From an uncultured Eubacterium sp. (GTDB taxonomy: Bacteria; Bacillota; Clostridia; Lachnospirales; Lachnospiraceae): a DNA stretch of 47,200 nucleotides. This document shows, one piece after another, positions 25,947-47,200 of this stretch; the stretch's first letter is position 1, and each line of letters begins with the position of its first letter. A program made the translations under genes and the position numbers. The DNA lies in the NCBI GenBank assembly GCA_949959185.1, contig CATLIX010000025.1, forward strand, positions 1 to 47,200, in the 5' to 3' direction. The notes beneath the pieces were generated by a model. It did no database searches. It was given only the letters and a program-made list of their open reading frames with translations, and was not told the DNA's origin.

Positions 25947-25969
25947 GATTATCACCTCCTTACAAGTAT

Positions 25970-25998: not shown

Positions 25999-26024
25999 TG
26001 AAAATATTACATTTTTTCTTTGTT

Positions 26025-26118: not shown

Positions 26119-26150
26119 CACTTATTTTTTGCCCGGAAGGAGGAATTTAT

Positions 26151-26489: not shown

Positions 26490-26500
26490 GGGGTGGTTCT

Positions 26501-26893: not shown

Positions 26894-26904
26894 GGTGAAC
26901 AGCG

Positions 26905-29541: not shown

Positions 29542-29554
29542 GAGGTGAAAGGCG

Positions 29555-31982: not shown

Positions 31983-33020
31983 ATGATGAAGTTGGAGGGA
32001 ATTGTAATATGCTCCGGTGGCATGGTGGATGTGGAAGGCGTACCGGAGGAGATAAAAATCCTTCCCCTCGGACATGTGCATTCGCAGAAGGGTGATTTTG
32101 AGGTTGATGATGAGAGTGTTGATTTAATCCGGAAACAGTTCAAGAGCCGGAAGTTAGACCTTGTAATTGACTATGAACATCAGACGCTCAAAGATGTACA
32201 GGCTCCGGCAGGAGGATGGATTGAGGACATTTACAAAGGGGAGGATGCGGTTGTCGCAAAGGTAAAGTGGACAGACAAAGCAAAGGAATATCTCCGGAAC
32301 AGGGAATACCGGTATCTTTCACCAGTAGTCATGGTAAGGAAAAAGGACAGGAAAGCAGCAGCCATCCACTCCGCTGCCCTGACAAACACACCGGCTATTG
32401 ATGGGATGTTCGCAATCGTGAATTCCATTGATATATCAAATTATGAAGAGGAGGAAACACAAATGGATCTGAAAAAGTTGGCACAGCTGCTTGGGCTTCC
32501 GGACACAGCAACGGAAGAGGATGTTGAAAAGGCACTTGCAGCATTGGCAGAGGCATCAAATGAAGCAAACAAAGGCGATGAGGACAAGAAGGAGAGCAAA
32601 GATGCAGAAGAAGCTGTACCGGTTGCAAACTCTGTTGTATTATCGCTGCTTGGTTTGAAGGCAGATGCAAAGACGGAAGATGTGGCTACAGCCATTATGA
32701 AACTTTCGGCAGGGACGGGAAATGACGAGGTGCTTGCCCTGAAGGAAGAACTGAAGGAACGCAATGCAGAGGACATGGTGCAGATGGCTCTGAAAGAAGG
32801 GAAAATCACTGCAGCACAGAAGGAATGGGCGAAGTCCTATGCCCTGAGCGATAAGGAAGGGTTCAAGTCTTTTGTTGACAAAGCACCGATAATTGTCCCA
32901 CAGGGCAAAATGGAACTGAAGGATGCCCCGGCAGACAGCCATCAGGATTATGATATGGAAATCCTGAAAAACTGCGGTCTTTCAAAAGAGGATGTTGAAA
33001 AATATTACAAGGAGGATTAG
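31983..33020 (+). CDS. Phage protease and scaffold (Mu gpI-like)
   Basis: The protein has 345 residues. The N-terminal protease domain (about 1-160: FKSRKLDLVIDYEHQTLKDV, AGGWIEDIYKGED, YRYLSPVVMVRKKD, ALTNTPAIDGM) matches the Mu prohead protease. The rest is an acidic, helical scaffold (LGLPDTATEEDVEKALAALA). In Mu a scaffold is also made from an internal start. AAGGAG lies directly on ATG 31983, so TTG at 31992 with nine-base spacing may be the real start. Confidence 0.88.
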   Translation: MMKLEGIVICSGGMVDVEGVPEEIKILPLGHVHSQKGDFEVDDESVDLIRKQFKSRKLDLVIDYEHQTLKDVQAPAGGWIEDIYKGEDAVVAKVKWTDKAKEYLRNREYRYLSPVVMVRKKDRKAAAIHSAALTNTPAIDGMFAIVNSIDISNYEEEETQMDLKKLAQLLGLPDTATEEDVEKALAALAEASNEANKGDEDKKESKDAEEAVPVANSVVLSLLGLKADAKTEDVATAIMKLSAGTGNDEVLALKEELKERNAEDMVQMALKEGKITAAQKEWAKSYALSDKEGFKSFVDKAPIIVPQGKMELKDAPADSHQDYDMEILKNCGLSKEDVEKYYKED

Positions 33021-33022
33021 TC

Positions 33023-33406
33023 ATGGACAGAGTAGGAAACCAGAAACTTTCAGGAATGGATATCAATATCCCGGTAGCAGCCGGTGCAACGATTACCGAG
33101 GCAGTAATGGTTGCGGTAGGTACAGACGGTTATGCGGTGGCAGCATCCAAGACTGCCGGTCTTACCATTGCAGGATGTGCAATGAGGCATACGGACAATG
33201 CTTCCGGCAGCAATGGGGCTGTGTCAGTTCCGGTCAGGAGAGGGGCATTTGTGTGGGATAATGATGGAAGCATAGAGGAAACGGATATCTTAAAGGATGC
33301 GTATGTGTCTGATGAGAAAACCGTCACAATCACAGCAGAGGGTTCAAGCAGGGCAGGGAAAATCCTTGCAGTTGATACCGATGGCGTGACAGTAGAGATG
33401 TTATAG
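33023..33406 (+). CDS. Capsid decoration-type protein
   Basis: The protein has 127 residues and is Ala/Thr/Val-rich with beta-strand character: NIPVAAGATITEAVMVAVGT, SKTAGLTIAGCAMRHTDNAS, and TAEGSSRAGKILAVDTDGVT. Its size and place between protease and major capsid fit a DUF2190-like head decoration protein. The start is two bases after the protease stop with AAGGAGG. Confidence 0.7.
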   Translation: MDRVGNQKLSGMDINIPVAAGATITEAVMVAVGTDGYAVAASKTAGLTIAGCAMRHTDNASGSNGAVSVPVRRGAFVWDNDGSIEETDILKDAYVSDEKTVTITAEGSSRAGKILAVDTDGVTVEML

Positions 33407-33417
33407 GAGGTAGCAGA

Positions 33418-34323
33418 ATGATTGTAAATCAGGCAAGTTTGAAGGGCTTGAATGTAAGTTATTCCGCGGCTTACAACAAAGCCTTTGAGGGTGTTAAGAG
33501 CAATTATGAGAAGATTGCCACAACAGTACCAAGCACAACAGCGGAAACCAATTACAAGTGGTTAGGGCAGATTCCGCAGATGCTGGAATGGATGGGTGAC
33601 AGGGAAATCCAGAGCCTGTCTGCATATGATTATACTATCAAAAACAGAAAGTTTGAAATGACCATATCCGTGCCGCGGGATGACATTGAAGATGACCAGT
33701 ATGGGATTTATACGCCGCTGTTTTCCAATATGGGCGAATCCGCGGCACAGCATCCAAATACACTGTGTTTTGGTGCATTAAAGGCCGGATTTAAAGAAAA
33801 ATGCTATGATGGAAATCCTTTCTTTGCGGAAAACCATCCATCCGGGGAGGGTGGAAAAAAGACAGTAAGCAACATTTCCCACAATAAGCTGGACGCAGGT
33901 TCTTATATGGCAGCAAGGGCTTCCATGATGAGTCTTACCGGCGATAAAGGAAGGAGTCTGAACCTGGTACCAAATCTTCTGGTGGTTCCTCCGGGAAATG
34001 AAAAAGCCGGTCGGCTGATTCTGGAAGCTGACCAGATTAATGGTACTACCAATGTATTGAAGGGTACAGCAGAACTGCATGTGGAAACAGAAATTGCAGA
34101 CATGCCGGAGGCATGGTTCCTTCTCTGCACAAACCGGTTCTTAAAGCCAATCATTTTCCAGAAAAGAAAGGCAATCAAAATGACTTCCCTGACGAAAGAT
34201 GATGACCAGAATGTATTTATGAGGGATGAATTTGTATGGGGTGCAGATGGACGTTCCAATGCCGGATATGGCTTCTGGCAGATGGCGTATGGTTCTGATG
34301 GCACAGAACAGGCACAGGGTTAG
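33418..34323 (+). CDS. Major capsid protein (Mu gpT-like)
   Basis: The 301-residue protein shows Mu gpT motifs: GLNVSYSAAYNKAFEGVKSN, WLGQIPQMLEWMGDREIQSL, YGIYTPLFSNMGESAAQHPN and GNPFFAENHP. It is the main head shell subunit, made in high amount, with AGGAGG just before ATG 33418. Confidence 0.93.
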   Translation: MIVNQASLKGLNVSYSAAYNKAFEGVKSNYEKIATTVPSTTAETNYKWLGQIPQMLEWMGDREIQSLSAYDYTIKNRKFEMTISVPRDDIEDDQYGIYTPLFSNMGESAAQHPNTLCFGALKAGFKEKCYDGNPFFAENHPSGEGGKKTVSNISHNKLDAGSYMAARASMMSLTGDKGRSLNLVPNLLVVPPGNEKAGRLILEADQINGTTNVLKGTAELHVETEIADMPEAWFLLCTNRFLKPIIFQKRKAIKMTSLTKDDDQNVFMRDEFVWGADGRSNAGYGFWQMAYGSDGTEQAQG

Positions 34324-34336
34324 GAAGGTGAGACAG

Positions 34337-34795
34337 ATGGCATATTGTACTGCAAGCGAAGTGCTGGACATGCTGAAGGCGGATATGCTGAATGCGATTA
34401 TCGGTGATGGCTACATAGAAGATGAGAAAGAGCGGATTGAAGCAGTCATGCCATATGCAGAACAGGCTGTTGATGATGCACAGGCGGAGATTGACGGTTA
34501 TCTTGCAAAACGGTACAATGTACCGTTTTCCAGGACACCTGAAGTTATCAATAAATTTGCAAAAGATATTGCATTGTATAATCTGGTATCCCGGAAGGGC
34601 GTTGACGAGAATGAGCGCGAAAAGACATACCTCACAAGGTATAATGCTGCTGTTGCATTCCTGACCAAAGTTGCGGAAGGGAAGATAGACATAGGTGTGC
34701 CGGAGGGGTATTCCACAGAGGATGCAGCCAAGAACGGATTTTCCATGAAAAGCGCAAGGCGGACATTTACCAGGAACAGCATGAGAGGGTGGTGA
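34337..34795 (+). CDS. DUF1320 family protein (Mu gp36-like)
   Basis: The protein has 152 residues from ATG 34337 with GGAAGGTGA upstream; a longer frame enters the capsid gene. MAYCTASEVLDMLKADMLNA, DAQAEIDGYLAKRYNVPFSR and FAKDIALYNLVSRKG match DUF1320, a head-tail connector-like protein next to the capsid gene in Mu-like phages. Confidence 0.87.
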   Translation: MAYCTASEVLDMLKADMLNAIIGDGYIEDEKERIEAVMPYAEQAVDDAQAEIDGYLAKRYNVPFSRTPEVINKFAKDIALYNLVSRKGVDENEREKTYLTRYNAAVAFLTKVAEGKIDIGVPEGYSTEDAAKNGFSMKSARRTFTRNSMRGW

Positions 34796-34799
34796 GCAG

Positions 34800-35288
34800 A
34801 TGTCTTCCATATCGGTAAGATTAGACGGGGAAGTGGATGAACTGCTTGCCAGATTGAAACAGATGTCCGGCATTGACAAGGCCGGAGTGATGAATGCCAT
34901 TGCCGAAGGACTGCGGACTTCTACAGTAGAGCGGTTTAGCTCGGAGGAGTCACCGGAAGGAATCAGGTGGAAGCCATCTATCCGGGCAACAAGGCAGGGT
35001 GGCAGGACACTTACAAAATCAGCAGGCCTGAAGAACTCAATTAAGGCACAGGTGGACGGAACCGGTGCAGCGGTAGGAACCAATCTGATATATGCAGCAA
35101 CGCATCAGTTTGGAGATGAGAGAACAATCAGGGCAAAGAAGGGAAGATACCTGCGGTTCCGGATCGGGGACAGATGGGTGAGCATCCCTTCTGTCCGGGT
35201 AAATATCCCAGCCAGACCATTCCTTGGAATCAGCAAAGAGGATGAAGAGGAAATCAGGGCGATACTGGATGAAATATTCGAGGAATAA
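34800..35288 (+). CDS. Virion morphogenesis protein (Mu gpG-like)
   Basis: The protein has 162 residues. Motifs of phage virion morphogenesis/tail completion proteins: GIRWKPSIRATRQGGRTLTK, NLIYAATHQFGDERTIRAKK, and INIPARPF-type VNIPARPFLGISKEDEEEIR. It joins head and tail. It lies four bases after gp36. Confidence 0.88.
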   Translation: MSSISVRLDGEVDELLARLKQMSGIDKAGVMNAIAEGLRTSTVERFSSEESPEGIRWKPSIRATRQGGRTLTKSAGLKNSIKAQVDGTGAAVGTNLIYAATHQFGDERTIRAKKGRYLRFRIGDRWVSIPSVRVNIPARPFLGISKEDEEEIRAILDEIFEE

Positions 35289-35291
35289 AGA

Positions 35292-35783
35292 ATGAAAGCA
35301 GAAAGAGATTTTTTGGTTCAGAAACTAAAAGATGCAGGTATTCACGGGAAAATACACGAATCCATGAAAAGCCTGAAAAACTGCAATGAGGTTCATGTGG
35401 GTGCGGTTCTCAGGACAGGGGAAGATTTCACTCGTTCAGGCTCAAAAAAGAAATATACAGACCAGGAGGGGCATCGGAAACAGAGGAATAAACTGTTTGA
35501 AAGGACTTCGGAACTGCATGTTGTCATAGCCGATACTGACGAAGCCAAGGTAGAGGAAATACTGACAAATTTCCTGAAGAACATTTCCAAAGGTCTTGAG
35601 GTCAATGGAAACTGGGTGGATATTGAGATTGGAAAAGCGGACTGGGTGGAAGGGGATGACAGCATCCTGAAGAGTAAAATTGCAGTGGAATTTGATGTTA
35701 TCCTGACAGGAGGTATTTATGTGGATACAGATGTAATTGCAGCAAAAATCGGCAATATTGAAGCAGCAGAGAACAGGGGGTAG
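35292..35783 (+). CDS. Tail terminator-like protein
   Basis: The protein has 163 residues. ELHVVIADTDEAKVEEILTN, VNGNWVDIEIGKADWVEGDD and AVEFDVILTGGIYVD give an alpha/beta protein at the place of Mu gp37-type tail terminators. The name rests on position and fold style; no strong motif is recognised. Confidence 0.6.
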   Translation: MKAERDFLVQKLKDAGIHGKIHESMKSLKNCNEVHVGAVLRTGEDFTRSGSKKKYTDQEGHRKQRNKLFERTSELHVVIADTDEAKVEEILTNFLKNISKGLEVNGNWVDIEIGKADWVEGDDSILKSKIAVEFDVILTGGIYVDTDVIAAKIGNIEAAENRG

Positions 35784-35788
35784 ATAAA

Positions 35789-35992
35789 GTGGAAGGACAG
35801 AAAGAGAACTGTGCGACCATTGAAGAGTTAAAAGCAGTGAACGGGACATCGGATGCAGTATTTGAAGGTGTCAAAGCTGACAACAGCTGGAAAACCGGGA
35901 AAATGGTTACAGAAAAAATCTATCAGGAGGCAGTGGATGCCTTTGGAAAAGCACCAATGGACGGGAGAAAGGTGAAAAAAGATGTTCAGTGA
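35789..35992 (+). CDS. Small phage protein before the sheath gene
   Basis: The protein has 67 residues from GTG 35789. It reads CATIEELKAVNGTSDAVFEG, WKTGKMVTEKIYQEAVDAFG. Its end overlaps the sheath gene by 11 bases. Mu-like phages often have a small protein of this size before the sheath; function unknown. Confidence 0.6.
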   Translation: MEGQKENCATIEELKAVNGTSDAVFEGVKADNSWKTGKMVTEKIYQEAVDAFGKAPMDGRKVKKDVQ

Positions 35993-37406
35993 AATCAATG
36001 TTGAGGTGGAAGATGGGAACCTTGGGAGAAATTCAGGTACAGCTGCACAGGTACAGGTAAAAATAGGGGTGTCAGATACGGAAAGCAATACACCGGTTCT
36101 GATTACTAATACCATGAAACCGGAGGACATTAAGAAAAAATTAGGATATACGCCACTGGCAGATGCGTGTATAGATGCCACTGAGAATGGATTGAAAACA
36201 ATCTATGCCATTCCCGTGAAAGCAGATATTCCCGGAGAAATCGGGGAAGTAGTGCATACCGGAACCGGAGAAGGAATCTTTGAAGTGAATGGAACCCCGA
36301 ACAATTCCTACGATGTTGTTATTCAGATTACCGGAACCGGGGATGCCAATGAAGGCAGTTTCCGTTACTCCATTGACGGGGGAAATAATTTTTCGGAGGA
36401 GTACACGATCCCACCTGGAGGGAAGTATGATATTTCAGGTACCGGACTGTTTTTGAATTTTGGGGATGTCACTTCAGACGTAAAGAGCTTTATGGAAGAA
36501 GATGCATATTCCTTCAGTACAACAGCACCAACAATGAATAATGCCAGTGTGCTGAAGGCAGTGGAAAAACTGACTGGATATAACAAAGTAGTTGAGGTAT
36601 GCCATATTGTGGGGATATCCACAAAAACTTTATGGGCGGCATTGCAGAGTGAGGCAGAGGAATTTCTGACGACGTACCGGAAACCTTTGATTTTTCTCTG
36701 TGAGGCAAGGCCCTGTGCCGAAGGGGAATCTCCGGAAGAATATATGGCTGCCATGGAAGCAGAACGGAAAGGAATCAGCAGTTTTTTTATCTGTATATCC
36801 CTTTCCTGGGCAATTTATCAGAGGAAAGACTTCCGCATACAGAATATTAATCTTGCAGGGGTTATTTCCGGACTGATTGGAAGGGCAAAAGAAAGCCTTT
36901 CTGTTGGATGTGTGGAGGAATTCCCTGTCAGTTCGGGAAAACTGCTCAGGCTCTTTCCGGAGGGTATTGAGGATTACAGCAGAGAGCTGGATGAAATGGG
37001 GTATACTGTATTTCGCCAGTATAGCGGAAAAGAAGATTTCTATGTATCCAATGCAAATGTCATGGCTCCTGTCGGGAGTGATTTTCCGTATGTGGAAAGC
37101 GTTCGGGTACTTAACAGGATCATAAGGGAAATAAGCAGGAAAGCGACCGATAAAATTCAGACAGAAATTGATCCGGGTAATCTGGAAGGAAGCGTAAAGG
37201 CCATTGAGGCGTATCTCAATATTGCAATGGAAGAATGTGAAAAAGATAAAATTATCAGTTCCGGGGAAGTGGCGATTGATACAGAAAACCTGAACATTCT
37301 TGCAGATGAAACACTGCCTGTGGAAGCAGCATGGGTTCCTATGGGTACAGTCAGAAGATTTAATATCCGCTTTACAGTAAATAATCCGGCAGTATCCGGA
37401 AACTGA
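35982..37406 (+). CDS. Tail sheath protein (DUF2586-like)
   Basis: The protein has 474 residues. The N terminus GNLGRNSGTAAQVQVKIGVS, central VVEVCHIVGISTKTLWAALQ, RKPLIFLCEARP and C-terminal FPYVESVRVLNRIIREISRK identify the contractile sheath subunit. The phage is therefore a myovirus like Mu. Confidence 0.88.
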   Translation: MFSEINVEVEDGNLGRNSGTAAQVQVKIGVSDTESNTPVLITNTMKPEDIKKKLGYTPLADACIDATENGLKTIYAIPVKADIPGEIGEVVHTGTGEGIFEVNGTPNNSYDVVIQITGTGDANEGSFRYSIDGGNNFSEEYTIPPGGKYDISGTGLFLNFGDVTSDVKSFMEEDAYSFSTTAPTMNNASVLKAVEKLTGYNKVVEVCHIVGISTKTLWAALQSEAEEFLTTYRKPLIFLCEARPCAEGESPEEYMAAMEAERKGISSFFICISLSWAIYQRKDFRIQNINLAGVISGLIGRAKESLSVGCVEEFPVSSGKLLRLFPEGIEDYSRELDEMGYTVFRQYSGKEDFYVSNANVMAPVGSDFPYVESVRVLNRIIREISRKATDKIQTEIDPGNLEGSVKAIEAYLNIAMEECEKDKIISSGEVAIDTENLNILADETLPVEAAWVPMGTVRRFNIRFTVNNPAVSGN

Positions 37407-37425
37407 AGACAGGAGGGATAGAAAT

Positions 37426-37869
37426 ATGACAAGACAGCTGATCAATGGGAAATGCTATGACTGGTCGAGTGTGACCGTCAGTGTACCGGGAATGGACAGT
37501 ATTGAATTTCAGGAAATTTCCTACGATGATGAACAGGAGCTGGAGCCGGTATATGGAAAAGGTGGAAGGATCAGGGGATATGGAACCGGTAATCAGAAGA
37601 ATTCAGTAAAAATATCATTGCTGCGGGAAGACTTTGACGAAATGTGCCGTATTATTCTGAGCACAGGCTGTAAACATTTTTATAAGTTTGTAATTGCTCA
37701 GATTACAGTAAGCTATGCAGATGAGGGAGCCCCTACTACAACAGATGTACTTACTAATGTAATATTCTCGAAACGTTCCTTAAAGGTAGCACAGGGGGAC
37801 AAGAGTATGAAGGTTGACCTTGACGGTGTGGCGATGGGCGGTATCAAAATGAATGGCCTTTGTGCTTAG
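37426..37869 (+). CDS. Tail tube protein
   Basis: The protein has 147 residues. NGKCYDWSSVTVSVPGMDSI, EPVYGKGGRIRGYGTGNQKN and VSYADEGAPTTTDVLTNVIF match the tube protein that follows sheath in myoviruses. The ribosome site AGGAGGGA lies 10 bases upstream. Confidence 0.85.
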   Translation: MTRQLINGKCYDWSSVTVSVPGMDSIEFQEISYDDEQELEPVYGKGGRIRGYGTGNQKNSVKISLLREDFDEMCRIILSTGCKHFYKFVIAQITVSYADEGAPTTTDVLTNVIFSKRSLKVAQGDKSMKVDLDGVAMGGIKMNGLCA

Positions 37870-37902
37870 TAATTATTATTTACAGAAAAAGGAGGATATA
37901 CC

Positions 37903-38316
37903 ATGGAAACAGAAGGAAAAAAAGAAGTACAGGAAATAAATTCAGCAGAAAAAAAAGAAATATGGCTGCCACCGGATGAAAAAGAGAAGATGGAGCAGCT
38001 CAGGAAAAAGTATAAGGAGATGGATGGAAAAATCTATGAAATTGAGACATCCATTCAGGAAGATGATGAAAACGAAACAGAGTTTGATTTTATTTTCAGG
38101 AAGCCGGGAACGCCGTCTTATGACAGATATGTAAAGACTTCCGGCACTTCCGGTACAAGGGCATTAAAAACATTTGTGCTTGACAATATCTGCGATGAGC
38201 AGCGTGACGAACTGAAAAACACTCTGGAGGAATATCCGGCAATGGCAATCAGTCTTGGTGAAAAGCTCCTGAATATGCTTGGCCTGTCTAAGGATACTAC
38301 GGTAAAAAAGTTATAG
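37903..38316 (+). CDS. Tail assembly chaperone, short form
   Basis: The 137-residue acidic protein: KEIWLPPDEKEKMEQLRKKY, TEFDFIFRKPGTPSYDRYVK, DELKNTLEEYPAMAISLGEK. It lies between tube and tape measure, the place of lambda gpG and Mu gp41. Near its end the heptamer A AAA AAG (38304-38310) is in the correct frame for -1 slippage into the next frame. Confidence 0.85.
   Translation: METEGKKEVQEINSAEKKEIWLPPDEKEKMEQLRKKYKEMDGKIYEIETSIQEDDENETEFDFIFRKPGTPSYDRYVKTSGTSGTRALKTFVLDNICDEQRDELKNTLEEYPAMAISLGEKLLNMLGLSKDTTVKKL
38304..38310 (+). promoter_or_regulatory. Programmed -1 ribosomal frameshift site
   Basis: A AAA AAG is the canonical X XXY YYZ slippery heptamer in the frame of the short chaperone, with AAA and AAG as zero-frame codons. 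The stop TAG follows six bases later (38314-38316). The -1 frame is open from 38292 to 38540. Confidence 0.88.
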
Positions 38317-38540
38317 AGGAACACTCGGAACAAATTAAACATAATATTGTGGATTATGGCAGGCTGCTGGTATATCTGTATCTTCCAAAAGAAATGATTC
38401 CGGATGATTTTGAACATGTGAGTTTTGATGAATTTTTCCGTTTTATCGGAATGGCACAGGCAGCAAGGGAACTGCGGATAGAGGATATTGAGATTGGTGT
38501 GAACAAAGGATATGTGGAAGCTCATCCGGATACTCAGTAA
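38304..38540 (+). CDS. Tail assembly chaperone, -1 frame extension (GT-type)
   Basis: Reached by -1 slippage at 38304-38310, the new frame reads VIEEHSEQIKHNIVDYGRLL and on to VNKGYVEAHPDTQ, 76 residues. This gives a fused product of about 212 residues. A separate start at GTG 38349 has no ribosome site, which supports the fusion. In lambda and Mu the long form binds the tape measure and recruits tube protein. Confidence 0.8.
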   Translation, partial: KKVIEEHSEQIKHNIVDYGRLLVYLYLPKEMIPDDFEHVSFDEFFRFIGMAQAARELRIEDIEIGVNKGYVEAHPDTQ

Positions 38541-38541
38541 A

Positions 38542-38569
38542 AGCCATGCTTCCATGTGGAAGTATGGCT
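38542..38569 (+). terminator. Hairpin between chaperone and tape measure
   Basis: AGCCATGCTTCC (38542-38553) pairs with GGAAGTATGGCT (38558-38569), one G-T pair, loop ATGT, then TTT. It may be a partial terminator or an RNA-stability element. Confidence 0.55.
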
Positions 38570-38596
38570 TTTACCATGGCGGAGGAGGTGAAGGCT

Positions 38597-41392
38597 ATGG
38601 GTATGGAATCTGTATTTCGTCTTTCTGTGGTTATGGGAATGCAGGATAACCTGACAGCTCCGCTTTCAGGCGTTACCAGCAGTGTAACAGATACAGCAAA
38701 AAAGCTGGATGATGCGTTTGGAACGGTTCAGAAAGCAGGGGCTGCACTTGCCGGTGTAGGAGCCGGTATCACAACAGCGTGTATTGCAACCGTAACGTCA
38801 ACTTTTGATACGCAGGATGCCCTTGGTGAACTTTCTTCTCTGGGAGTTACAGACTTAAAGGCAGTCGAAGATGCAGCAAAGAGTTTTTCAGATACATGGG
38901 CAGGAACAACGAAGAGTGATTTTATCACAGCATCCTATGACATTAAATCAGGTATTGCTTCCCTGACAGATGAAGGCGTGGCACAGTTTACAGAGCTTGC
39001 GGCACTGACCGGGAAAGCGACAAAATCAACTACTGAAGAAATGGGCTCACTGTTTGCAACAGGATATGGTATCTATAAAGGTGCATATGATGATATGTCA
39101 GATCTGGAATTTGGGGAGATGTTCTCTGCCGGTATATCAACAGCAGTTAAAAATTACAAGACAGCCGGTTCTGAGATGGCAAGTTCCATTTCTACACTGG
39201 GGGCAACTGCAACGAATAACAAGGTACCATTGGAAGAACAGCTTGCAGTTCTGGGACAGCTTCAGACAACCATGAGCGGTTCAGAGGCAGCAACAAAATA
39301 CAAATCTTTCTTAAATCAGGCCGCATCTGCAGGAGAAAAACTGGGCTTATCTTTTGTAGATGCCAATAACCAGCTGCTATCCACACCGGAAATTCTTGCA
39401 GAGTTGCAGGGAAAATATGGCGATACCATAGATGCAGTGGAAAAGCAGCAATTGAAAGAAGCCTTTGGAACAGATGAAGCAGTAGCCATGATTGACCTGC
39501 TGTATAATGACATAGACGGGCTGTCAGGTGGCATCGACTCAATGGCGGAAAGTATGAAAAAAGGCTCTGCTGTCACGACAGAAATGGCAGAGGCTATCAA
39601 TAATACACCGGCACAGAAATTTCAGGTACTGAAACAGCAGATACATAATAATGTGGAGGAACTTGGAAACGGGCTTCTTCCGGTTGTTAATGAAGCAATG
39701 GATAAGGTAAGCGGAGTCATACAGAAAGGCTCGGAGTGGATCAGCAACAACCAGAAAACTGTACAGACAATAATGAATATTGCTCTGAAACTTGGTGGTG
39801 TTTTAGTTGTGTTGGGGACAGTCATAGGCATTGTCGGAACAGTGGGGAAGGTAATATCGTCAGTAAAGGGTGCAATAAAAGCTGCAAAAGCAGCATGGTC
39901 AGTATTAAGCGGAGCTTTTGCAGCCTCACCGGTCGGGTGGGTTGTCATAGGAATAATAGCCCTGGTGGCAGCATTTATAGTGCTATGGAACAAATCAGAA
40001 GCTTTCCGGAATTTTTGGACAGGTCTGTTTGAGAAAGTCAAAGGGGCGGTACAGAGTGCATGGGATTCACTGCAGCCGGCACTCCAGAACCTGGGAGAGA
40101 AGCTCATGGGGCTGTATGAAGCAGCAAAGCCGATTTTGAAAGTCATTGGTACAATTGCCGGGGTTGTGGGTACTGTATTAGTCGGAACTTTTATTGGGGC
40201 CATACAGGGTATTCTTGCAGCACTGACACCTCTGACAAATGCATTTTCCAGTCTGGTGTCATTTATTACCAATATAATTAATGCAATAGTAGCACTGTTT
40301 AAGGGTGACTTTGGGGGAGCCTGTGACTTTCTGTCAGCAGCAGTTGGCAACGTGAAAGACTTTTTTATCAATGGATTTGATGCTATTTTATCATTTGTCG
40401 GCGGATTTGCAGACGGATTTTTGAACGTGGTCGGCGGTGCGTTATCAGCTGTTGGGATTGATGCTTCAGGTACAATTTCAAAAATCAAGAGTACCGTTTC
40501 AAACGGACTGAATGCGGTCAAGGGATTTTTTGGTAACATTATGGGAGCAGCTGCAGAGACAGCGAAGCAGAAGCTGAACAATATCAAAAGTGCCTATGAA
40601 TCCAATGGTGGAGGAATTAAAGGTGTGGTGGCAGCGTCACAGGAGGCAGTGAAAGGTTGCTTTACAGCAGGGCTCTCTTTTATCGACAATCTGACAGGAG
40701 GGAAGCTCACAGCCATAAAGAATAAATTCACGGATGGTCTGAATGGGGCAAAAAATGCAGTTACCGGTGCGCTGGACAGCATCAAATCCGGTTTCCAGAG
40801 CAAACTGGATGCAGCACATGCCATTGTCACCGGAATAATAGACAGGATAAAAGGCGTGTTCAATTTTAACTGGAAACTTCCGGAACTGAAACTTCCTCAC
40901 ATTAGTGTGACAGGAGGAGAGGCTCCATTCGGAATTGCAGGAAAGGGTTCGCTTCCCAAATTTGATATCCAGTGGTATGCAGATGGCGGCGTGATGACAG
41001 CCCCTACAATCTTTGGAGCAGCCGGAGGCAAGCTGTTAGGCGGAGGCGAAGCCGGAGATGAGGCAATCCTTCCATTGTCTGCATTGTGGGATAAGTTAAA
41101 AATATTCATTCATAATGAAATGGATCAGGATGGAGATAAGAACCGGGGCAGTGTTGGTTCGGTCATATCCGCACTGACGAGGAAAGAACCAGGGACGCCT
41201 GAGAGCAAAGAAAAGGTAACAGAAAGAGACATACAGGAGTTAAAGTCCGGTAACGGAAAAGGAAATACAATCATCCAGAAACTGGAAATCAGAGTTGATG
41301 TCGAGAAGATAAAAGACCTTCCGATGCTGTTCAAACTGATTGATGAGATTAAGGATGCACAGAATTCCACAGATGAACCGGTAACAGCCTAG
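38597..41392 (+). CDS. Tail tape measure protein
   Basis: The protein has 931 residues from ATG 38597 with GGAGGAGGTG just upstream. It is Ala/Ser/Gly-rich and helical (TDTAKKLDDAFGTVQKAGAA, TTEEMGSLFATGYGIYKGAY). Hydrophobic segments lie near residues 400-460 and 510-560 (GWVVIGIIALVAAFIVLWNK). FGAAGGKLLGGGEAGDEAIL near the end is the typical conserved tape-measure tail. It sets tail length and guides DNA injection. Confidence 0.92.
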   Translation: MGMESVFRLSVVMGMQDNLTAPLSGVTSSVTDTAKKLDDAFGTVQKAGAALAGVGAGITTACIATVTSTFDTQDALGELSSLGVTDLKAVEDAAKSFSDTWAGTTKSDFITASYDIKSGIASLTDEGVAQFTELAALTGKATKSTTEEMGSLFATGYGIYKGAYDDMSDLEFGEMFSAGISTAVKNYKTAGSEMASSISTLGATATNNKVPLEEQLAVLGQLQTTMSGSEAATKYKSFLNQAASAGEKLGLSFVDANNQLLSTPEILAELQGKYGDTIDAVEKQQLKEAFGTDEAVAMIDLLYNDIDGLSGGIDSMAESMKKGSAVTTEMAEAINNTPAQKFQVLKQQIHNNVEELGNGLLPVVNEAMDKVSGVIQKGSEWISNNQKTVQTIMNIALKLGGVLVVLGTVIGIVGTVGKVISSVKGAIKAAKAAWSVLSGAFAASPVGWVVIGIIALVAAFIVLWNKSEAFRNFWTGLFEKVKGAVQSAWDSLQPALQNLGEKLMGLYEAAKPILKVIGTIAGVVGTVLVGTFIGAIQGILAALTPLTNAFSSLVSFITNIINAIVALFKGDFGGACDFLSAAVGNVKDFFINGFDAILSFVGGFADGFLNVVGGALSAVGIDASGTISKIKSTVSNGLNAVKGFFGNIMGAAAETAKQKLNNIKSAYESNGGGIKGVVAASQEAVKGCFTAGLSFIDNLTGGKLTAIKNKFTDGLNGAKNAVTGALDSIKSGFQSKLDAAHAIVTGIIDRIKGVFNFNWKLPELKLPHISVTGGEAPFGIAGKGSLPKFDIQWYADGGVMTAPTIFGAAGGKLLGGGEAGDEAILPLSALWDKLKIFIHNEMDQDGDKNRGSVGSVISALTRKEPGTPESKEKVTERDIQELKSGNGKGNTIIQKLEIRVDVEKIKDLPMLFKLIDEIKDAQNSTDEPVTA

Positions 41393-41406
41393 AGGGAGGG
41401 AAGCCC

Positions 41407-41961
41407 GTGCTTTTAGTTCAGGAACACTTAATAAAACTTGGAGGCGTGAAGCTCTCCGGTCAGATGAAGAGCATTGACATTTCTGAAGTTGCAACGATTG
41501 AGAATATAGAGGATGACAAAGGAAAAACAAAGGCCAGTCAGCCAACAGGATATGAGGCAGCAAAAATTTCTGTTGAGTTCATTTTAGAAGATTCCAGGAA
41601 AATGACACAGATAGAACAGATATCCGCTATGCAGAGGCTTTTCAAACCATACAGGCAAAAGAAAGCAAAACTCCTGAAGGTTGTAAATGAGGATTGTGCA
41701 GCACGAGGCATCTCAAAAGTGTATTTTGAGAAACTCGGTACAAAAAATGAAGTGGCTGAAAGTGAAAGGACTGCTACGTTGGAGCTGCTTGCTCCAACAA
41801 TAGCAGGAATTAAGCTGAAGCCATCCAAACAGGCAAAAGCAATAAAGAAACAGCTTAAAAAAACTTTTGGAAAGTCTAAAAAAAAGAAAAACAAAAGTCC
41901 GTCTGCTAAAAAGCGTTCCACAGCTGCTGCAAAGCAAAAGGCGAAAAAGCTGATTAAGTAG
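41407..41961 (+). CDS. Baseplate-associated protein with lysine-rich tail
   Basis: The protein has 184 residues from GTG 41407. VQEHLIKLGGVKLSGQMKSI, ISVEFILEDSRKMTQIEQIS and TATLELLAPTIAGIKLK form a compact N-terminal part. Residues 140-184 are an unusual Lys/Ala/Ser tail (KKTFGKSKKKKNKSPSAKKR). It lies between tape measure and hub, the place of baseplate/DNA-circulation or LysM-type proteins; exact family not recognised. Confidence 0.65.
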   Translation: MLLVQEHLIKLGGVKLSGQMKSIDISEVATIENIEDDKGKTKASQPTGYEAAKISVEFILEDSRKMTQIEQISAMQRLFKPYRQKKAKLLKVVNEDCAARGISKVYFEKLGTKNEVAESERTATLELLAPTIAGIKLKPSKQAKAIKKQLKKTFGKSKKKKNKSPSAKKRSTAAAKQKAKKLIK

Positions 41962-41972
41962 GAGGTTCGGAG

Positions 41973-42764
41973 ATGGAATATAAAAGGTTAATCAGCCCGG
42001 AGTTCCGTATCAGCACAAAAAAGTATGAAATAACCAGTGGCATGGAGGTGGAGTGTTTCAGCAGCCGGGAGTCCCGGTCGGACTGGTGCAAAGTAGAACT
42101 TACATCTCAGCTTCAGGGAATTATGTCATATGAAGATATGGAAAAAGCCATAGTGGAACTTGGATATGGGGATGACTATGATATTCTCCTGCAGGGGTAC
42201 TGCAGAAGGACTGAGGGCGATTACTGGAAGGAAATTATGATCCGGGATGCCATGATAAAGATTGAGAGGACTGAAATCAAAGGAACTTTTACCTTCTGCA
42301 CCCCACAGGACATTATCCGGTATGTGCTGGCACAGGCAGGGATTAAAGAATACCGGTTGAATGAAATGGAATATGGGAAAAAAGATACGTTTATTGTAAA
42401 TAAACAGAATGGGATTAAGGCAATAGCGCAGGTTGGAAGTACATGGGGGATAGATAATGACTTCTTTTTTCAGAATGAAATCTTTTATTGGGGATGCAAA
42501 CCAGAGCAGGAAGCCATCTATGTTCTGGAGGAGAGTGAAAACATACTTTCGCTGAAAAAGTATGGTGAACTGTATGAGATAGAAACTTTTGGAGTGCCAT
42601 GGATACATCACAGTCAGGAGGTAGAAGTGTTACATTCAAAATATTCGGGAACTGTAAAAGTTGAAAAGACAATTATTAAGAGTGATATAAGAGGATATAC
42701 AAGAATGTATATTTATTTCAAAGGAGGAAGCCAGAATGTCAGATATGCTCCGGAAGTTTGTTAG
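41973..42764 (+). CDS. Baseplate hub protein (gpD/gpP-like)
   Basis: The 263-residue protein's ISTKKYEITSGMEVECFSSR, CKVELTSQLQGIMSYEDMEK, DIIRYVLAQAGIKEYRL and IKAIAQVGSTWGIDNDFFFQ follow the pattern of phage hub proteins that sit at the tail tip. It overlaps the spike gene by 29 bases. Confidence 0.75.
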   Translation: MEYKRLISPEFRISTKKYEITSGMEVECFSSRESRSDWCKVELTSQLQGIMSYEDMEKAIVELGYGDDYDILLQGYCRRTEGDYWKEIMIRDAMIKIERTEIKGTFTFCTPQDIIRYVLAQAGIKEYRLNEMEYGKKDTFIVNKQNGIKAIAQVGSTWGIDNDFFFQNEIFYWGCKPEQEAIYVLEESENILSLKKYGELYEIETFGVPWIHHSQEVEVLHSKYSGTVKVEKTIIKSDIRGYTRMYIYFKGGSQNVRYAPEVC

Positions 42765-43032
42765 AAAAGAGGTGGAAAAACAGATTCAGGAAAAATATCC
42801 TCATATGCGGCAACCTTCAGGGGTGTATGCAAAGGTTATGCATTCGGAGGAACGCAGTGGGAAGTATGTGTGTACGCTCAGGATTCTTAATGAATCTATG
42901 AACGTGGATAATGACATTCCGGAAATACCAAATGTAAAAACAGATATCAGCCTCATGCAGGGAGAAATAGTGGCAATTCTCTTTTTGTACGGAGGAAACA
43001 CAGTGTTTGTTTTGGGGAGGTATGCGTCATGA
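42736..43032 (+). CDS. Baseplate spike/assembly protein, gpV-like OB fold
   Basis: The protein has 98 residues. A helical start (LRKFVRKEVEKQIQEKYPHM) precedes a small beta-barrel (GVYAKVMHSEERSGKYVCTL, MQGEIVAILFLYGGNTVFVL) typical of the OB domain of phage spikes. It lacks the long beta-helical tip of Mu gp45, so it is a reduced form or needs a separate tip. Confidence 0.7.
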   Translation: MSDMLRKFVRKEVEKQIQEKYPHMRQPSGVYAKVMHSEERSGKYVCTLRILNESMNVDNDIPEIPNVKTDISLMQGEIVAILFLYGGNTVFVLGRYAS

Positions 43033-43454
43033 CGATAGTGGGTGAAGATAATACAGATATCCGGCTGGATGAAAATGGCCAGCCGGTTCCTGATAAAAAC
43101 GGAGATTTTGCAACTGTGTCTGGTGATGAATGCTGGGAACAGGATTTGAGGCTGGAGACGCATACAGAGGAAGGAGAACTGTTTTATGAAGATGCAGATG
43201 GCGATGAGTCATATGGTTTTGGACTGTCAGACTTTGTCCATGCAGAGAATGATGAGTTTACACAGACGGAGATTATGCAGCGTGTCAGGGGCAAACTTGC
43301 CAAGAGGACATACCTTGATCCGGCAAAAACCACGCAGGAGGTAACGTTTCGTGATGGCATATATTATGACAGTGTATCCATCTCAAAGAATGATTCCAAT
43401 GATGAATATAACATGGAATTGTCAACGGAGGAAGTGGAGGTTGAGAGGGAATGA
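43029..43454 (+). CDS. Baseplate wedge protein, gpW/gp25-like
   Basis: The 141-residue acidic protein: ECWEQDLRLETHTEEGELFY, GDESYGFGLSDFVHAENDEF, EIMQRVRGKLAKRTYLDPAK. It overlaps the neighbours by four bases on both sides and directly precedes the J-type protein, as gpW/gp25 proteins do. Confidence 0.78.
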   Translation: MTIVGEDNTDIRLDENGQPVPDKNGDFATVSGDECWEQDLRLETHTEEGELFYEDADGDESYGFGLSDFVHAENDEFTQTEIMQRVRGKLAKRTYLDPAKTTQEVTFRDGIYYDSVSISKNDSNDEYNMELSTEEVEVERE

Positions 43455-44590
43455 TAAGTGAAGAAATACTGAATAAAGTCTGTCCGGTTCCGGATGAAGA
43501 AGCAGTGATGGACAACATCCGGTCTGAACTGGAGGAAAAAGGATTTGTCATTAACAATTTTAACAAAGGTGGTATTTTCTATCTGATTATCAGAATATTT
43601 GTCACAATTTACATAGAACTGAAGGAACTTGCCCGGACAGTCATCAATAACCTGTTCTGGAAACATGCGGACGAAGACTGGCTGGAAATAAAAGCTGCTG
43701 ATTATGGAAAGGGCAGGAAAGAGGCTGTAAAAACTCAGGGTTATATAACCATATATCGTACAGAATTTCAGAGTGCCCTTCAAATTATGAAAGGCCACAT
43801 GTTTAAAACCCTTCCGGATATAAACGGAAAAGAACTGAAGTTTTATGCGGTCGATACAACAGTAATTCCTGCCGGTGAAAAAATCGGAAAGGTTCTGGTA
43901 GAAGCGGAAGAAAGTGGAGCCGGATACAATGTAACAGAAGGGAAGATTACTGTTTCCATGATATATCTGGAAGGTGTGGAATCAGTAATAAATGAGGAAA
44001 ACTGGCTTTATCTGGAAGGTGCAGACGTGGAGTATATTGAAGACTTCCGTGAGCGGATAGGGGAGTCATGGTCTGAACTTGCAGAACTGACAACCGAGGA
44101 TAAGCTGAAGAATGTGGCGAGGAAAGTCAGCGGTGTACTGGATGTAAAAGTAAATGCGCAGCATCCAAGGGGGCAGGGAACTACGGACATCATTATTACC
44201 GGGACGGGCGGAGAAGCAACTGCGGAACTGCTCAGACGGGTGGAAGAGGCAACCGCTTATCTGAAGGGGAATTATGATGATTTTCTGTATAAATCGTCCA
44301 TTGTTATAGAGCAGGATATATGTCTTACACTGTATATTGCAAGAGATGCGGCAACGGAAGGGGTGAAGGAATCAGCAGAATATATTATTCAGGATGTCAT
44401 GCAGCTGGACAGAAGGGAAGAAATGAACTGCCTGTATATAGATGATATTAAGTATGCCCTGAAAAGAGGAATATCAAATTATAAAAGGACAGAATTTAGA
44501 AAACCTGAAATGGATATTGAACTGGATAAAGAAAAAGTTGTAATGCCGGGAAAAATCGAAGTAGATGTCCGCAATATCGGAGGAATATAG
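43451..44590 (+). CDS. Baseplate J-like protein (Mu gp47-like)
   Basis: The 379-residue protein matches the Baseplate_J family: VINNLFWKHADEDWLEIKAA, YGKGRKEAVKTQGYITIYRT, GAGYNVTEGKITVSMIYLEG, DVKVNAQHPRGQGTTDIIIT. It forms the outer baseplate ring that connects to fibres. Confidence 0.9.
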   Translation: MISEEILNKVCPVPDEEAVMDNIRSELEEKGFVINNFNKGGIFYLIIRIFVTIYIELKELARTVINNLFWKHADEDWLEIKAADYGKGRKEAVKTQGYITIYRTEFQSALQIMKGHMFKTLPDINGKELKFYAVDTTVIPAGEKIGKVLVEAEESGAGYNVTEGKITVSMIYLEGVESVINEENWLYLEGADVEYIEDFRERIGESWSELAELTTEDKLKNVARKVSGVLDVKVNAQHPRGQGTTDIIITGTGGEATAELLRRVEEATAYLKGNYDDFLYKSSIVIEQDICLTLYIARDAATEGVKESAEYIIQDVMQLDRREEMNCLYIDDIKYALKRGISNYKRTEFRKPEMDIELDKEKVVMPGKIEVDVRNIGGI

Positions 44591-44592
44591 AA

Positions 44593-45339
44593 ATGTTTGA
44601 GGATTTTTGTGAGTATATGTATTACCTCCTTATATCACCGTTTAAAAAGGTAAAAAAGAAAATAAACCAGTGGCATATCCTTTTTGGGGTACTGGGAAAA
44701 TATTTTGATGATGCAATGGAAAGCCTCTATTCAGCCGGAGAGCAGACTATGCTGGCCACATGTGACCCTGTGATGTTACAGGTTCATGCGGACGAGAGAC
44801 ATATAAACAGGTATGCCGGGGAGGAAATTGAAAATTTTCGCGCCAGAATTGCCATGTATGGGGAAATATGCAGGCTGGGAGGAACAAATCAGGGAATCCT
44901 CCTTGCGGTGAAGACACTGGGCTTTGAGGATGTGGAGATAAAAACTGCAAAGGAACTGAAAGGAAATCCCGAACGGTGGGCGGAGTTTTATGTCCTGATC
45001 AGAATGGAGCTGGAGTGGCCTTATCCAATTTCCTTTGATATTCTGAAAAAGAATGTCAGAATCTGGAAAGAGGCAGGTGCAAAGGATAATTACCAGTTTA
45101 TTCTGCATTCTGCAGAACTGACGGGAAGGGCGGAGGAACTCTGCCGGGTTATATTAAAAGAGATAATTGTAAATGAAAACAGGCCGGATACTAAAACGGT
45201 TCTTCTGCTGGAAGCAGAGAATACGGAAGATACGGAACTTGGGATAGATATAAAAAATAATCTCTGGTATCTGGATGGTACATATGATTTAGATGGTGCG
45301 AAAGTGCTGAATGCATATGAAATAAAGGAGAAATTGTAA
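44593..45339 (+). CDS. Tail protein, Mu gp48 / gpI-like
   Basis: The protein has 248 residues. YLLISPFKKVKKKINQWHIL, NRYAGEEIENFRARIAMYGE and LGGTNQGILLAVKTLGFEDV match the protein between baseplate J and the tail fibre. It is likely the fibre-attachment component. Confidence 0.75.
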   Translation: MFEDFCEYMYYLLISPFKKVKKKINQWHILFGVLGKYFDDAMESLYSAGEQTMLATCDPVMLQVHADERHINRYAGEEIENFRARIAMYGEICRLGGTNQGILLAVKTLGFEDVEIKTAKELKGNPERWAEFYVLIRMELEWPYPISFDILKKNVRIWKEAGAKDNYQFILHSAELTGRAEELCRVILKEIIVNENRPDTKTVLLLEAENTEDTELGIDIKNNLWYLDGTYDLDGAKVLNAYEIKEKL

Positions 45340-45717
45340 ATGAAAAGTATAATCACGTCAATAGCAAAGAAAAAACTGATTCAGGCAAGAAAAGGAGAGA
45401 TATCCCTACCTGTGATTGCAGGAATTGCCGTAGGAGACGGTGCAGAAGATGAAACCGGGGAATTAAAAGACTTATCTGCAGAAGATTTTTTATTGAAGAA
45501 TGAACTGCTGCGCCGGGAATACTGCAAATGTGAAAAAATATCAGATACATGCTACAGATATCGGATGGAACTGTCTGCAGATGAGCTGGCAGGGAAAAAA
45601 ATAAATGAAGCAGCTTTATATGATACAGAAGGAGATTTGCTGGCAATCCGGGTGTTTACCGGAAAACAGAAAGATGGGGACATGGAAATGGCGTTTGAGT
45701 ATGATGATAAGTTTTAG
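45340..45717 (+). CDS. Fibre-adjacent tail protein
   Basis: The protein has 125 residues. It begins MKSIITSIAKKKLIQARKGE, then LPVIAGIAVGDGAEDETGEL, and ends in MEMAFEYDDKF. The start abuts the previous stop. N-terminal tail-collar-like pattern (GIAVGDG) is common in proteins that precede fibre genes. No firm family. Confidence 0.65.
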   Translation: MKSIITSIAKKKLIQARKGEISLPVIAGIAVGDGAEDETGELKDLSAEDFLLKNELLRREYCKCEKISDTCYRYRMELSADELAGKKINEAALYDTEGDLLAIRVFTGKQKDGDMEMAFEYDDKF

Positions 45718-45731
45718 GACAGGAGGAATAT

Positions 45732-46607
45732 ATGATGGAAAATTTTGAAATACCTGAAAATCCTGAATATACAGAGCAGATTCGTAAGTTTAAGACAACA
45801 GACAAGGCTCATGCAGACTTGTTCAATGCAACATTTCAGCTTCTGTTTAATAATGAGGCATTCCTGAAAAAAATGCTGGAGAAACAGGGGATTGATATAC
45901 AGGAAAAGTTTCAACAGAATTATGAGCAGCTTACAGGATATACAGATACGAAGATAGGGGAGCTTATAAATGGCGCACCAGAAACGTTAGACACTATAAA
46001 AGAGATTGCGGATGCGATTTTAGAAAATGAGACAATCGTGGAGGCCCTTAATGAGGCAGTTGGTAAAAAATTGAATAAAGATGGGGATTTAACTGATACG
46101 ACAGTGACATTTATTACTGAAGATGAGGAAGAGCCGAACAGATGGAAAAATATAGGGAAGTTAGTCACTGGAAAGATGAAAGATATATTAAATCATGTTT
46201 CCATCATGTCAAATAATTTAAAATATTTGAAAAAAATGTTAGGCTCTACGGATATTACAAAACTGGCAGATGGGACAGTTACGGGAGCGATTAGTAAGTT
46301 AAACACGGATTTGATCGGGAAATCTCCAATAAAAATTGGAACATCAGAAACATCTTTTTGCAATGCAGCAGGCGGAGCCGGGATAACAAGTGTATTTGCA
46401 ACTCTTGATAAAATTCACAGAGAAATCAGCAGTACGGAAAACGGTTTCCATAATACTACTGCTGTTGGGCCAATATATGGTATTCTGTTGCAAAAAACCG
46501 ACAGTAGCGGGCAGAGCTATAGTGGTATCGCCTTTAGCTACGCAACCATGGCAATTGTATATTTTGCTTATGTTGGAGGAACTTTCTATATTAAAGTTTA
46601 TGGCTGA
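45732..46607 (+). CDS. Tail fibre protein, currently expressed C-terminal variant
   Basis: The 291-residue protein's N terminus (residues 1-190: FKTTDKAHADLFNATFQLLF, TDTKIGELINGAPETLDTIK) attaches to the baseplate and is helical. The site coding LNTD (46300-46310) marks a switch point. After it comes a C-terminal domain (IKIGTSETSFCNAAGGAGIT, then IVYFAYVGGTFYIKVYG) that probably contacts the host surface. A reversed alternative C-terminal cassette follows 8 bases after the stop, and the same 11-bp site is at its far end. Inversion would swap the receptor-binding part. Confidence 0.85.
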   Translation: MMENFEIPENPEYTEQIRKFKTTDKAHADLFNATFQLLFNNEAFLKKMLEKQGIDIQEKFQQNYEQLTGYTDTKIGELINGAPETLDTIKEIADAILENETIVEALNEAVGKKLNKDGDLTDTTVTFITEDEEEPNRWKNIGKLVTGKMKDILNHVSIMSNNLKYLKKMLGSTDITKLADGTVTGAISKLNTDLIGKSPIKIGTSETSFCNAAGGAGITSVFATLDKIHREISSTENGFHNTTAVGPIYGILLQKTDSSGQSYSGIAFSYATMAIVYFAYVGGTFYIKVYG

Positions 46608-46926
46608 AAATATCACTAAATCCCGGAAGCCCGGATATATGATACACTACCCCTTACATAATATCCCTGCTCATGTGTAATATTTGTCCAGTCACTATTG
46701 TAAAAAACAAAATTTATTCCATTGATTAACATCCTTCCCGTAGTCAGTCTGTCCGGCCCTGCGTGTATAACAGCTATTTCCGTCACCGGTCGCCCCAGAG
46801 GGATATATTCAGCCGGAATAATGATATTATCTGAAATCGTATAATCATACAAGTCGATTTCAACATACTTTCCAACACAGTGAATAGTTATCTTATCGCT
46901 AAGTCTGACAGTAATATCCGTGTTTA
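46300..46926. other. Predicted invertible segment bounded by inverted TAAACACGGAT sites
   Basis: TAAACACGGAT at 46300-46310 (+) recurs as ATCCGTGTTTA at 46916-46926 (-). In both copies the site encodes L-N-T-D in the frame of the adjoining fibre C terminus. Inversion of the 600-bp segment would join the common fibre N terminus in frame to the other cassette. Confidence 0.7.
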
Positions 46927-46963
46927 GTGAACTGTGGAAAATGGAAGCCGGGAACCGGGAAAG
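46616..46963 (-). pseudogene. Silent alternative tail-fibre C-terminal cassette (no start codon)
   Basis: On the minus strand the frame is open from the stop at 46966-46964 to TAG 46618-46616. No ribosome site or good start is present, so it is not expressed alone. It reads HSSLNTDITVRLSDKITIHC, then IIIPAEYIPLGRPVTEIAVI and GRMLINGINFVFYNSDWTNI. This is a fibre-type C-terminal domain with no visible similarity to the expressed one. LNTD marks the crossover site. It is functional after inversion. Confidence 0.75.
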
Positions 46964-47021
46964 TTAGTTGAAAAACAGGACGTTTTGATATGGTATGATT
47001 GTGCCGGAGGTGGTTACAGTT

Positions 47022-47200
47022 ATGGATATAAGAGAACAGATTATACAGAAAGTCATGGAGGCTCTGGAAGGCCGGGTAGAGCGGGAGACAGCAGACCTTG
47101 TACAGGATGTGCTGGTTCTGGAACTGAACCGGTATGAGGTACAGGAACGGTGTACGGAGGTGTCGGTGCCTGATAACAGCGCGGAACGTATGCTGAAAAA
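47022..47200 (+). CDS. Probable tyrosine-type recombinase (3' truncated by the window)
   Basis: From ATG 47022 with GGAGG at 47006-47010, the first 59 residues are visible: MDIREQIIQKVMEALEGRVE, then DLVQDVLVLELNRYEVQERC and DNSAERMLKK. This resembles the N-terminal lead of Lachnospiraceae XerC/D-type integrases, before the SAM-like core-binding domain. The catalytic part lies outside the window. Next to the inverted fibre cassettes, it is the obvious candidate for the inversion enzyme. Confidence 0.6.
   Translation, partial: MDIREQIIQKVMEALEGRVERETADLVQDVLVLELNRYEVQERCTEVSVPDNSAERMLK

Follow-up and report, generated by a model that had tools for sequence, protein, structure and literature searches.

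Judged by its features, the described system nearest to the locus analysed here appears to be the Rin shufflon of Bifidobacterium prophages, rather than the G segment of phage Mu. In Rin, a tyrosine recombinase works with an 11-bp site in an array that has one constant and several variable ends, and virion DNA shows other arrangements than the prophage (PMC6109161); prophages of Eggerthella lenta are reported to have a comparable system, with a repeat of 8 bp (PMC8778435). The Gin, Cin and Min enzymes are serine recombinases (PMC6109161), and PsrA of the pneumococcal cod locus is a studied invertase of hsdS, the specificity gene of type I restriction systems (PMC7096588). Among the matches listed in a search of open-licence PMC papers, none had a title or abstract on an array of this kind from a Mu-like phage or from a phage of Lachnospiraceae. 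A catalogue of gene-altering inversions has reportedly been compiled by Milman et al. in 2023. From the observations set out below, we consider it highly probable that the present locus is a shufflon by which a temperate, Mu-like phage varies its tail fibre, flipped by a recombinase that is encoded between its two pairs of cassettes. It differs from the Rin system in the Mu-like carrier, the position of the recombinase gene between cassette pairs and the kinship to hsdS invertases.

The window, i.e. the whole stretch of 47,200 nucleotides that we analysed, is an entire contig (C25) of a genome in 114 contigs, and its end falls within the recombinase gene. Its final 77 bases (47124-47200) recur in reverse at the end of contig C8 (77916-77992); the assembly contains no third exact copy of this 77-mer, the other match being a copy on C67 with 94% identity, and the overlap looks like the typical leftover of a k=77 assembler at a branching point. 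Support for the join that is independent of the overlap comes from a genome of the same species (G026, 5 contigs), because its empty insertion site shows both host flanks contiguous: the window up to 15706 adjoins the reverse complement of C8 from 2955 onward, with a 6-bp overlap. A lost short contig, perhaps a second recombinase copy belonging to a related prophage on contigs C18 and C23, would account for the break inside the recombinase gene.

The joined prophage (Table 1) has TG...CA ends; its start can be read as TGTGATTTG and its end as CTACA, with AACAG on either side, which is probably a 5-bp target duplication at Mu-type ends, the exact end base being our probable choice. In addition to the MuA- and MuB-like proteins it encodes GemA, Gp27, Mu F, the Mu I protein and gpT, followed by a tape measure, baseplate J and Tail_P2_I proteins. 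MuA and MuB, Mu-type head genes, TG...CA ends and a short target duplication together mark the carrier as a Mu-like myophage resident as a transposable prophage, as a preliminary description drawn from the window had proposed, and its host is probably a gut bacterium. A D12 adenine methylase and an HTH protein lie at the right end of the prophage, on C8 between S4 (76392) and about 75039. Mu has DNA-modification genes near its right end, and the present array likewise stands at the end of the tail genes with a DNA-modification gene after it.

Table 1. Features of the prophage and its fibre array (positions are those of the window unless C8 is named)
Feature	Position	Strand	Remarks
Mu-like prophage, left 31.5 kb	15706..47200	+	continues on C8 from 77915 down to about 75039; ~34.4 kb in total
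MuA-like transposase	17725..19797	+	Pfam Mu-transpos_C 2.9e-18, DDE_2 7.2e-12; PHROG transposase 3.6e-95
MuB-like ATPase	19856..20833	+	AAA_22 9e-15; PHROG DNA transposition protein 3.5e-58
Baseplate J-like protein	43451-44590	+	Pfam and PHROG
Tail_P2_I-like protein	44593-45339	+	Pfam and PHROG
Tail-collar-fibre-like protein	45340-45717	+	PHROG match only; no Pfam family
Tail fibre gene, present state	45732..46607	+	ORF; constant N terminus 45732-46298, cassette A 46299-46607
Putative recombination site S1, TAAACACGGAT	46300..46310	+	codes LNTD; heads cassette A
Silent cassette B	46616..46927	-	103 aa from LNTD; 12 open codons upstream
Putative recombination site S2, TAAACACGGAT	46916..46926	-	inverted relative to S1; heads cassette B
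Tyrosine recombinase	47022..47200, then C8 77915 down to 77096	+	332 aa in total; ATG 47022
Putative site S3, exact copy	C8 76973-76963		heads cassette C
Putative site S4, AAAACACGGAT	C8 76402-76392		heads cassette D

Read across the join, the locus has four cassettes and four sites around a central recombinase gene, in the order S1>A> <B<S2 (rec>) S3>C> <D<S4. Cassettes A and B meet tail to tail, with stop codons at 46607 and 46616, and the stop codons of C and D overlap. The open frame upstream of the cassette runs for 196 codons at A and for 12, 38 and 21 codons at B, C and D, respectively, so that cassette A alone is joined to a start and an N terminus. S1 and S2, inverted at the junction ends of A and B and both reading LNTD in frame, are the only two exact copies of TAAACACGGAT in the window, where 0.01 are expected and none of 100 shuffles reached two, and the ATG of the recombinase gene at 47022 follows 95 bp beyond the site. 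For cassettes A and B, their two sites and the start of the recombinase gene, our analysis bears out the preliminary description. That description had also equated the layout with the Mu G segment, and here it fails, since a two-state switch of the G type is ruled out by the two further cassettes on C8 and the enzyme gene lies between two pairs. In 15 kb of C8, the pattern WAAACACGGAT has two copies (0.01 expected; 0 of 200 shuffles), and the pattern TAAACACGGATNT has seven exact matches genome-wide, six of which are in the array or in related prophage pieces (C8, C18, C23, C67 and two on C25), while the seventh, on C54, lies inside an apparent ABC-transporter gene and reads like a chance copy.

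The arrangement is that of a shufflon, in which a single constant N terminus is accompanied by several silent C-terminal cassettes and a site stands at the head of every cassette. The N-terminal part of the fibre has no Pfam family, and its best named match among tail-fibre PHROGs is at 2.6e-8. Comparison of cassettes A-D with one another gave no matching pair at E 1e-6, and of seven cassettes searched against Pfam and PHROG six had no family, the other one (from L068) matching a fibre-repeat family. A close relative of cassette B (98% over the first 45 residues) is joined to a fibre N terminus in locus a of Eubacterium sp. 14-2, a strain with two arrays, the other of which we call locus b. 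In the viral_contigs collection, the fibre N terminus and cassette A have distant or no relatives, and cassettes B and D match only records of taxon 2563367179, the copy there matching Eubacterium sp. 14-2.

Two domains are recognised in the recombinase, Phage_integrase (PF00589, 2e-37) and, at the N terminus, a SAM-like one (PF13495, 6e-8), and its nearest solved structures are XerC-like 4a8e (1.5e-30) and XerD 1a0p (8.6e-27). Alignment to these two structures places the six catalytic residues of a tyrosine recombinase (R, K, H-x-x-R, H, Y) at R201, K225, H289, R292, H315 and Y324, in the numbering of a 341-residue reading. Judged by domain and residues, the product is a tyrosine recombinase of the XerC/D-like kind and is complete; the preliminary description had predicted such an enzyme and proposed to look for R...H-x-x-R...Y in the rest of the gene, all of which is present once C8 is joined. 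A Pfam scan of 25 window ORFs, which are a subset of the prophage ORFs, gave no serine recombinase.

From these observations, we hypothesize that the recombinase joins a forward with a reverse site, which would invert the DNA between them and place a new cassette behind the sole fibre N terminus; because the site encodes L-N-T-D, the exchange would keep the reading frame. Exchange between S1 and S2 would lead to expression of B, and exchange between S1 and S4 to expression of D, with the recombinase gene turned round; exchange between S3 and S4 would swap C and D, and C would then be reachable in two steps. S1 and S3, like S2 and S4, are direct repeats, and deletion should be possible too. The array is presumably active in the present strain now, and the exchanged tips plausibly alter what the phage binds, with a change of host range.

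The likeness to Rin is one of features: a phage-borne XerD-like tyrosine recombinase, a constant N terminus of a putative receptor-binding protein with silent C-terminal cassettes, and a site that is short and asymmetric (11 bp, or 8 bp in E. lenta) and at which rearrangements occur. Unlike Rin, whose rix site is TTCCCTAACCC and whose gene stands at the outer cassette edge (PMC6109161), the present array has TAAACACGGAT and a gene between S2 and S3 that some of the inversions would turn; the Rin carriers are integrase-type prophages of Actinobacteria, whereas here we find a Mu-like phage and other Lachnospiraceae myophages. With the Mu G segment and Gin, P1 Cin and p15B Min the array shares its apparent purpose, the provision of alternative fibre ends. 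It differs from the G segment in that the adjoining gene encodes a tyrosine and not a serine recombinase, and in having four cassettes instead of a two-cassette S/U switch.

A scan of the genome_contigs collection with the recombinase gave 16 loci. Of these, 14 have 61-95% identity and carry labels of Lachnospiraceae or related Clostridia, whereas two are at 31-32%; a scan of IMG/VR gave five loci at 71-91% identity. The named hosts include Eubacterium sp. 14-2 (two copies), Petralouisia muris, Parablautia sp. and Acetatifactor muris. We inspected 19 loci including the present one, of which 17 have sites (55 sites), while no site was found in L058 and L062. Six of the 19 show the complete series S1> <S2 rec> S3> <S4 (the present locus, L050, L051, L054, L055 and L068), and L060 of Acetatifactor muris DSM 23669 is an eight-cassette array with eight alternating sites (2247-11243). 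Ten other loci have one to four sites, several on contigs that end nearby, and in L056 every recognised site is on one side of the recombinase. Neighbouring sites are opposed in 37 of the 38 pairs from the 17 loci with sites, the one same-orientation pair being in L063. In the 13 loci where both can be seen, the recombinase gene points away from the fibre N terminus in 11 and towards it in two (L060 and L070), as inversion between outer sites would give. By eye, L060 also has a second, partial recombinase-like ORF at 4835-5287.

The count of sites leaves out L066 (identical to L051), the two loci lacking a site, the TAAACATGGAT copies with short frames in L056, the second copy of an exact 642-bp duplication in L063 (which, if kept, adds a same-orientation pair) and, as spurious, one pattern match each in L055, L061, L067 and L068; the second site of L053 is tallied as silent despite 134 open codons upstream. 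Sites were searched with the pattern AAACA[CT][GCA][GA][AG][ATC] followed by in-frame N-T/M, so that the constancy of positions 2-6 and of the frame is partly built in. A T at -4 (52 of 55 sites) and a purine-pyrimidine step at -1/0 are free of this bias. In all 16 loci with at least two sites, positions 2-10 do not differ from site to site within the locus. Position 11 varies within six of these 16, and position 1 is T in 13 of 13 expressed sites and T, A or G in 31, 8 and 3 of the 42 silent ones; this variation disfavours a site of exactly 11 bp, and we provisionally take the strict core as the 9 bp of positions 2-10, with degenerate flanks. The restriction of expressed sites to T at position 1 may be a coding constraint.

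The array module is not tied to Mu-like phages, and other Lachnospiraceae myophages carry it too. Matches to MuA were found in four of 11 genomes or records searched (G000, G001, G007 and G424), and none in Eubacterium sp. 14-2, which has two such arrays; its locus b is preceded by tail genes with a YQBQ-like protein and baseplate J. The signature TNNRYTAAACACNGATNT gave 38 pattern hits in 12 of 29 genus genomes, against two for the reversed control. Two-cassette loci with both sites and no adjoining recombinase match were also seen: L142 (G004 C1 49784/50451), L143 and L144 (G003) and L072 (G026 C1 712172-712989). G003 and G026 have such site-bearing loci though neither genome has a recombinase match. 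All of these two-cassette loci, L142 included, are possibly locked remnants, or arrays served by the enzyme of another prophage.

Rearrangement with exchange at the site occurs in public assemblies of relatives. In Eubacterium sp. 14-2 (G004), locus b lies on a 2.2-Mb contig (C1), and a scaffold of 4351 bp (C4, with an N gap at 713-3483) holds the same cassettes rearranged. The 767-bp C/D segment is 100% identical in the two (C4 3504-4270, C1 591936-592702) and its flanks are exchanged, a left match of 34 bp being to the outer flank of S4 and a right match of 95 bp to the outer flank of S3, both at 100%; the segment is therefore inverted exactly at the sites. C4 1-616 corresponds to the A/B segment with one mismatch, and there the fibre N terminus is joined to B and not to A. 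This N terminus is 96.6% identical to that of locus b, and four mismatches fall within the last eight bases before the site, so that the left half of C4 may derive from a sister prophage. At locus a, runs of N (L050 6156-6610 and 8159-8368) abut sites at three of four edges, which hints at mixed reads, masking being the alternative.

Three phage tails (G001 C258, G009 C12 and G007 C17, the last with a MuA homologue as well) share 99.2-99.8% identity over 2.5 kb as far as the site, beyond which each has a tip of its own: of the first 100 positions after the site, 28 match between G001 and G009, and 25 between G001 and G007. The prophage on C18 and C23 occupies the same chromosomal place as an allele in G026 (pieces of C18 at 99.2-100% and C23 at 99.7% identity, with some insertions and deletions); both flanks agree through TAAACACGGAT, the DNA just inside differs on either side and, because each holds different cassettes, this is an exchange at the site and not a clean flip. 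We discarded a reading of C18 and C23 as both orientations within the present strain, since the end 77-mer of cassette D that they share is equally explained by two copies of D. The comparison of related genomes that the preliminary description had proposed thus yields other arrangements, with exchange at the predicted site; its invertible fibre switch stands as far as rearrangement of tips at the site in relatives is concerned, while its two-cassette extent does not, the real array having four. Points that speak against the shufflon reading are the direct repeats S1/S3 and S2/S4, the one-sided sites of L056, the same-orientation pair in L063, the site-bearing loci of genomes lacking a recombinase match, and the lack of a family match for six of seven cassettes.

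Could the cassettes instead have been swapped between phages by homologous recombination or gene transfer, the repeat being a conserved linker and no inversion taking place in culture? Related cassettes are indeed found in different phages and strains, different cassettes occupy one locus in G000 and G026, and LNTD is coding sequence. However, identity ends at the 11-bp site or within a base or two of it, and such a site is far too short for homologous exchange, and silent cassettes without a start retain both site and frame, in alternating orientation. Moreover, Eubacterium sp. 14-2 has identical DNA in both orientations within one strain, and the recombinase lies between sites in all six full four-site loci and in the eight-site L060, with one-sided L056 as the exception. 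We therefore regard exchange between phages without inversion as very unlikely.

The enzyme responsible might also be another one, such as host XerC/D or the invertase of a type I restriction locus, the gene at 47022 then having a different role, e.g. integration. Integration is a role that this phage does not need to fill, because it has a MuA-type transposase and inserts by transposition with a short target duplication. Further, enzyme and site diverge together: AAACAC-type sites accompany homologues at 60-100% identity (17 of 19 loci), and other repeats surround some homologues at ~40-53%. Although the genome does contain other tyrosine recombinases, e.g. a 40% homologue on C10 beside an apparent hsdS, and G003 and G026 have site-bearing loci without a recombinase of their own, we find it very improbable that a different enzyme acts here. 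Inversion by the encoded recombinase is most likely.

More distant homologues were sought in 397 family genomes, 48 of which gave matches at E 1e-60 or better, at no more than 53% identity apart from the present genome. L047 and L084 contain HsdM and HsdS (Pfam) together with a large ORF, by eye HsdR; their central recombinase, a ~40% homologue, has four alternating sites around it, with the sequence TAAACAATAAT or TAAATGATAAT. This four-site layout was seen in three of eight hsdS-type loci scanned (L047, L083 and L084, the other five being L046, L048, L049, L082 and L085). L046 is the 40% homologue in the present genome (G000 C10 57980-58969); its neighbours are hsdS-like by eye, and no repeated sites were found around it. 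At L115, L116 and L118, which lie beside phage-like or tail genes (Baseplate_J confirmed for L116), there are other repeats near the recombinase, and of the 29 loci L086-L114 five have an hsdS-like motif in their short flanks, the others being left unclassified. In a tree of 55 rows (21 labelled tail, 11 hsdS, 22 unlabelled and one outgroup), the 11 hsdS rows fall in one 100/100-supported branch together with nine unlabelled rows; the labels change four times for tail and five times for hsdS, and neither is one clean clade. We stress that the labels are our own: L058 and L062, lacking a site, are presumed tail, L046 and L048 were labelled by eye, and L083 is presumed hsdS, a motif scan having found none in it.

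The present array is like some of the hsdS invertase loci in its four alternating sites and central recombinase, and the sites there also begin with TAAA. It is unlike them in its target, which there is a DNA-specificity subunit and not a fibre, and in the sequence of the site; here the constant part is a tail-fibre N terminus that follows baseplate genes, and the Pfam/PHROG search gave no HsdS match in cassettes A-D. The kinship meant here is that to homologues of the L047/L084 type. In our judgement the evidence is evenly balanced on whether one tyrosine invertase family with one four-site architecture shuffles both fibre tips and type I specificity, the module having passed between phages and defence loci with site and enzyme co-diverging. 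If so, attack and defence in Lachnospiraceae would be diversified by the same machine, and the phage form would have its enzyme gene inside the array, itself turned round by inversion.

In the place of Mu's Gin, this Mu-like phage carries a probable shufflon with a tyrosine recombinase, so that a single lineage of the virus can probably vary its attachment target. Arrays related to it are found repeatedly in phages of Lachnospiraceae, few of which are cultured. TNNRYTAAACACNGATNT provides a simple searchable signature of such arrays, and through the kinship with hsdS invertases the origin of this switching becomes testable. To judge from the contig ends and gaps seen here, the arrays break assemblies, so that fibre tips may be missing or wrong in databases. 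One candidate for an assembly effect is L045 (G007 C25), where an exact 642-bp duplication comprising the end of a fibre N terminus, a site and a cassette (7837-8478 and 9607-10248) flanks a truncated recombinase; the assembler may have merged two states of the array here. In the present genome, C67 (L010, 3071-3866) carries a decayed copy of the array, with a recombinase fragment, one site and a cassette fragment. Between that site and the gene lies a repeated element of ~0.1-0.4 kb, which also occurs twice on C13 (L012, record 28850-29820) and on C19 (L013, record 25196-25629) and whose product seems, by resemblance, to be a very small membrane peptide and may be a type I toxin.
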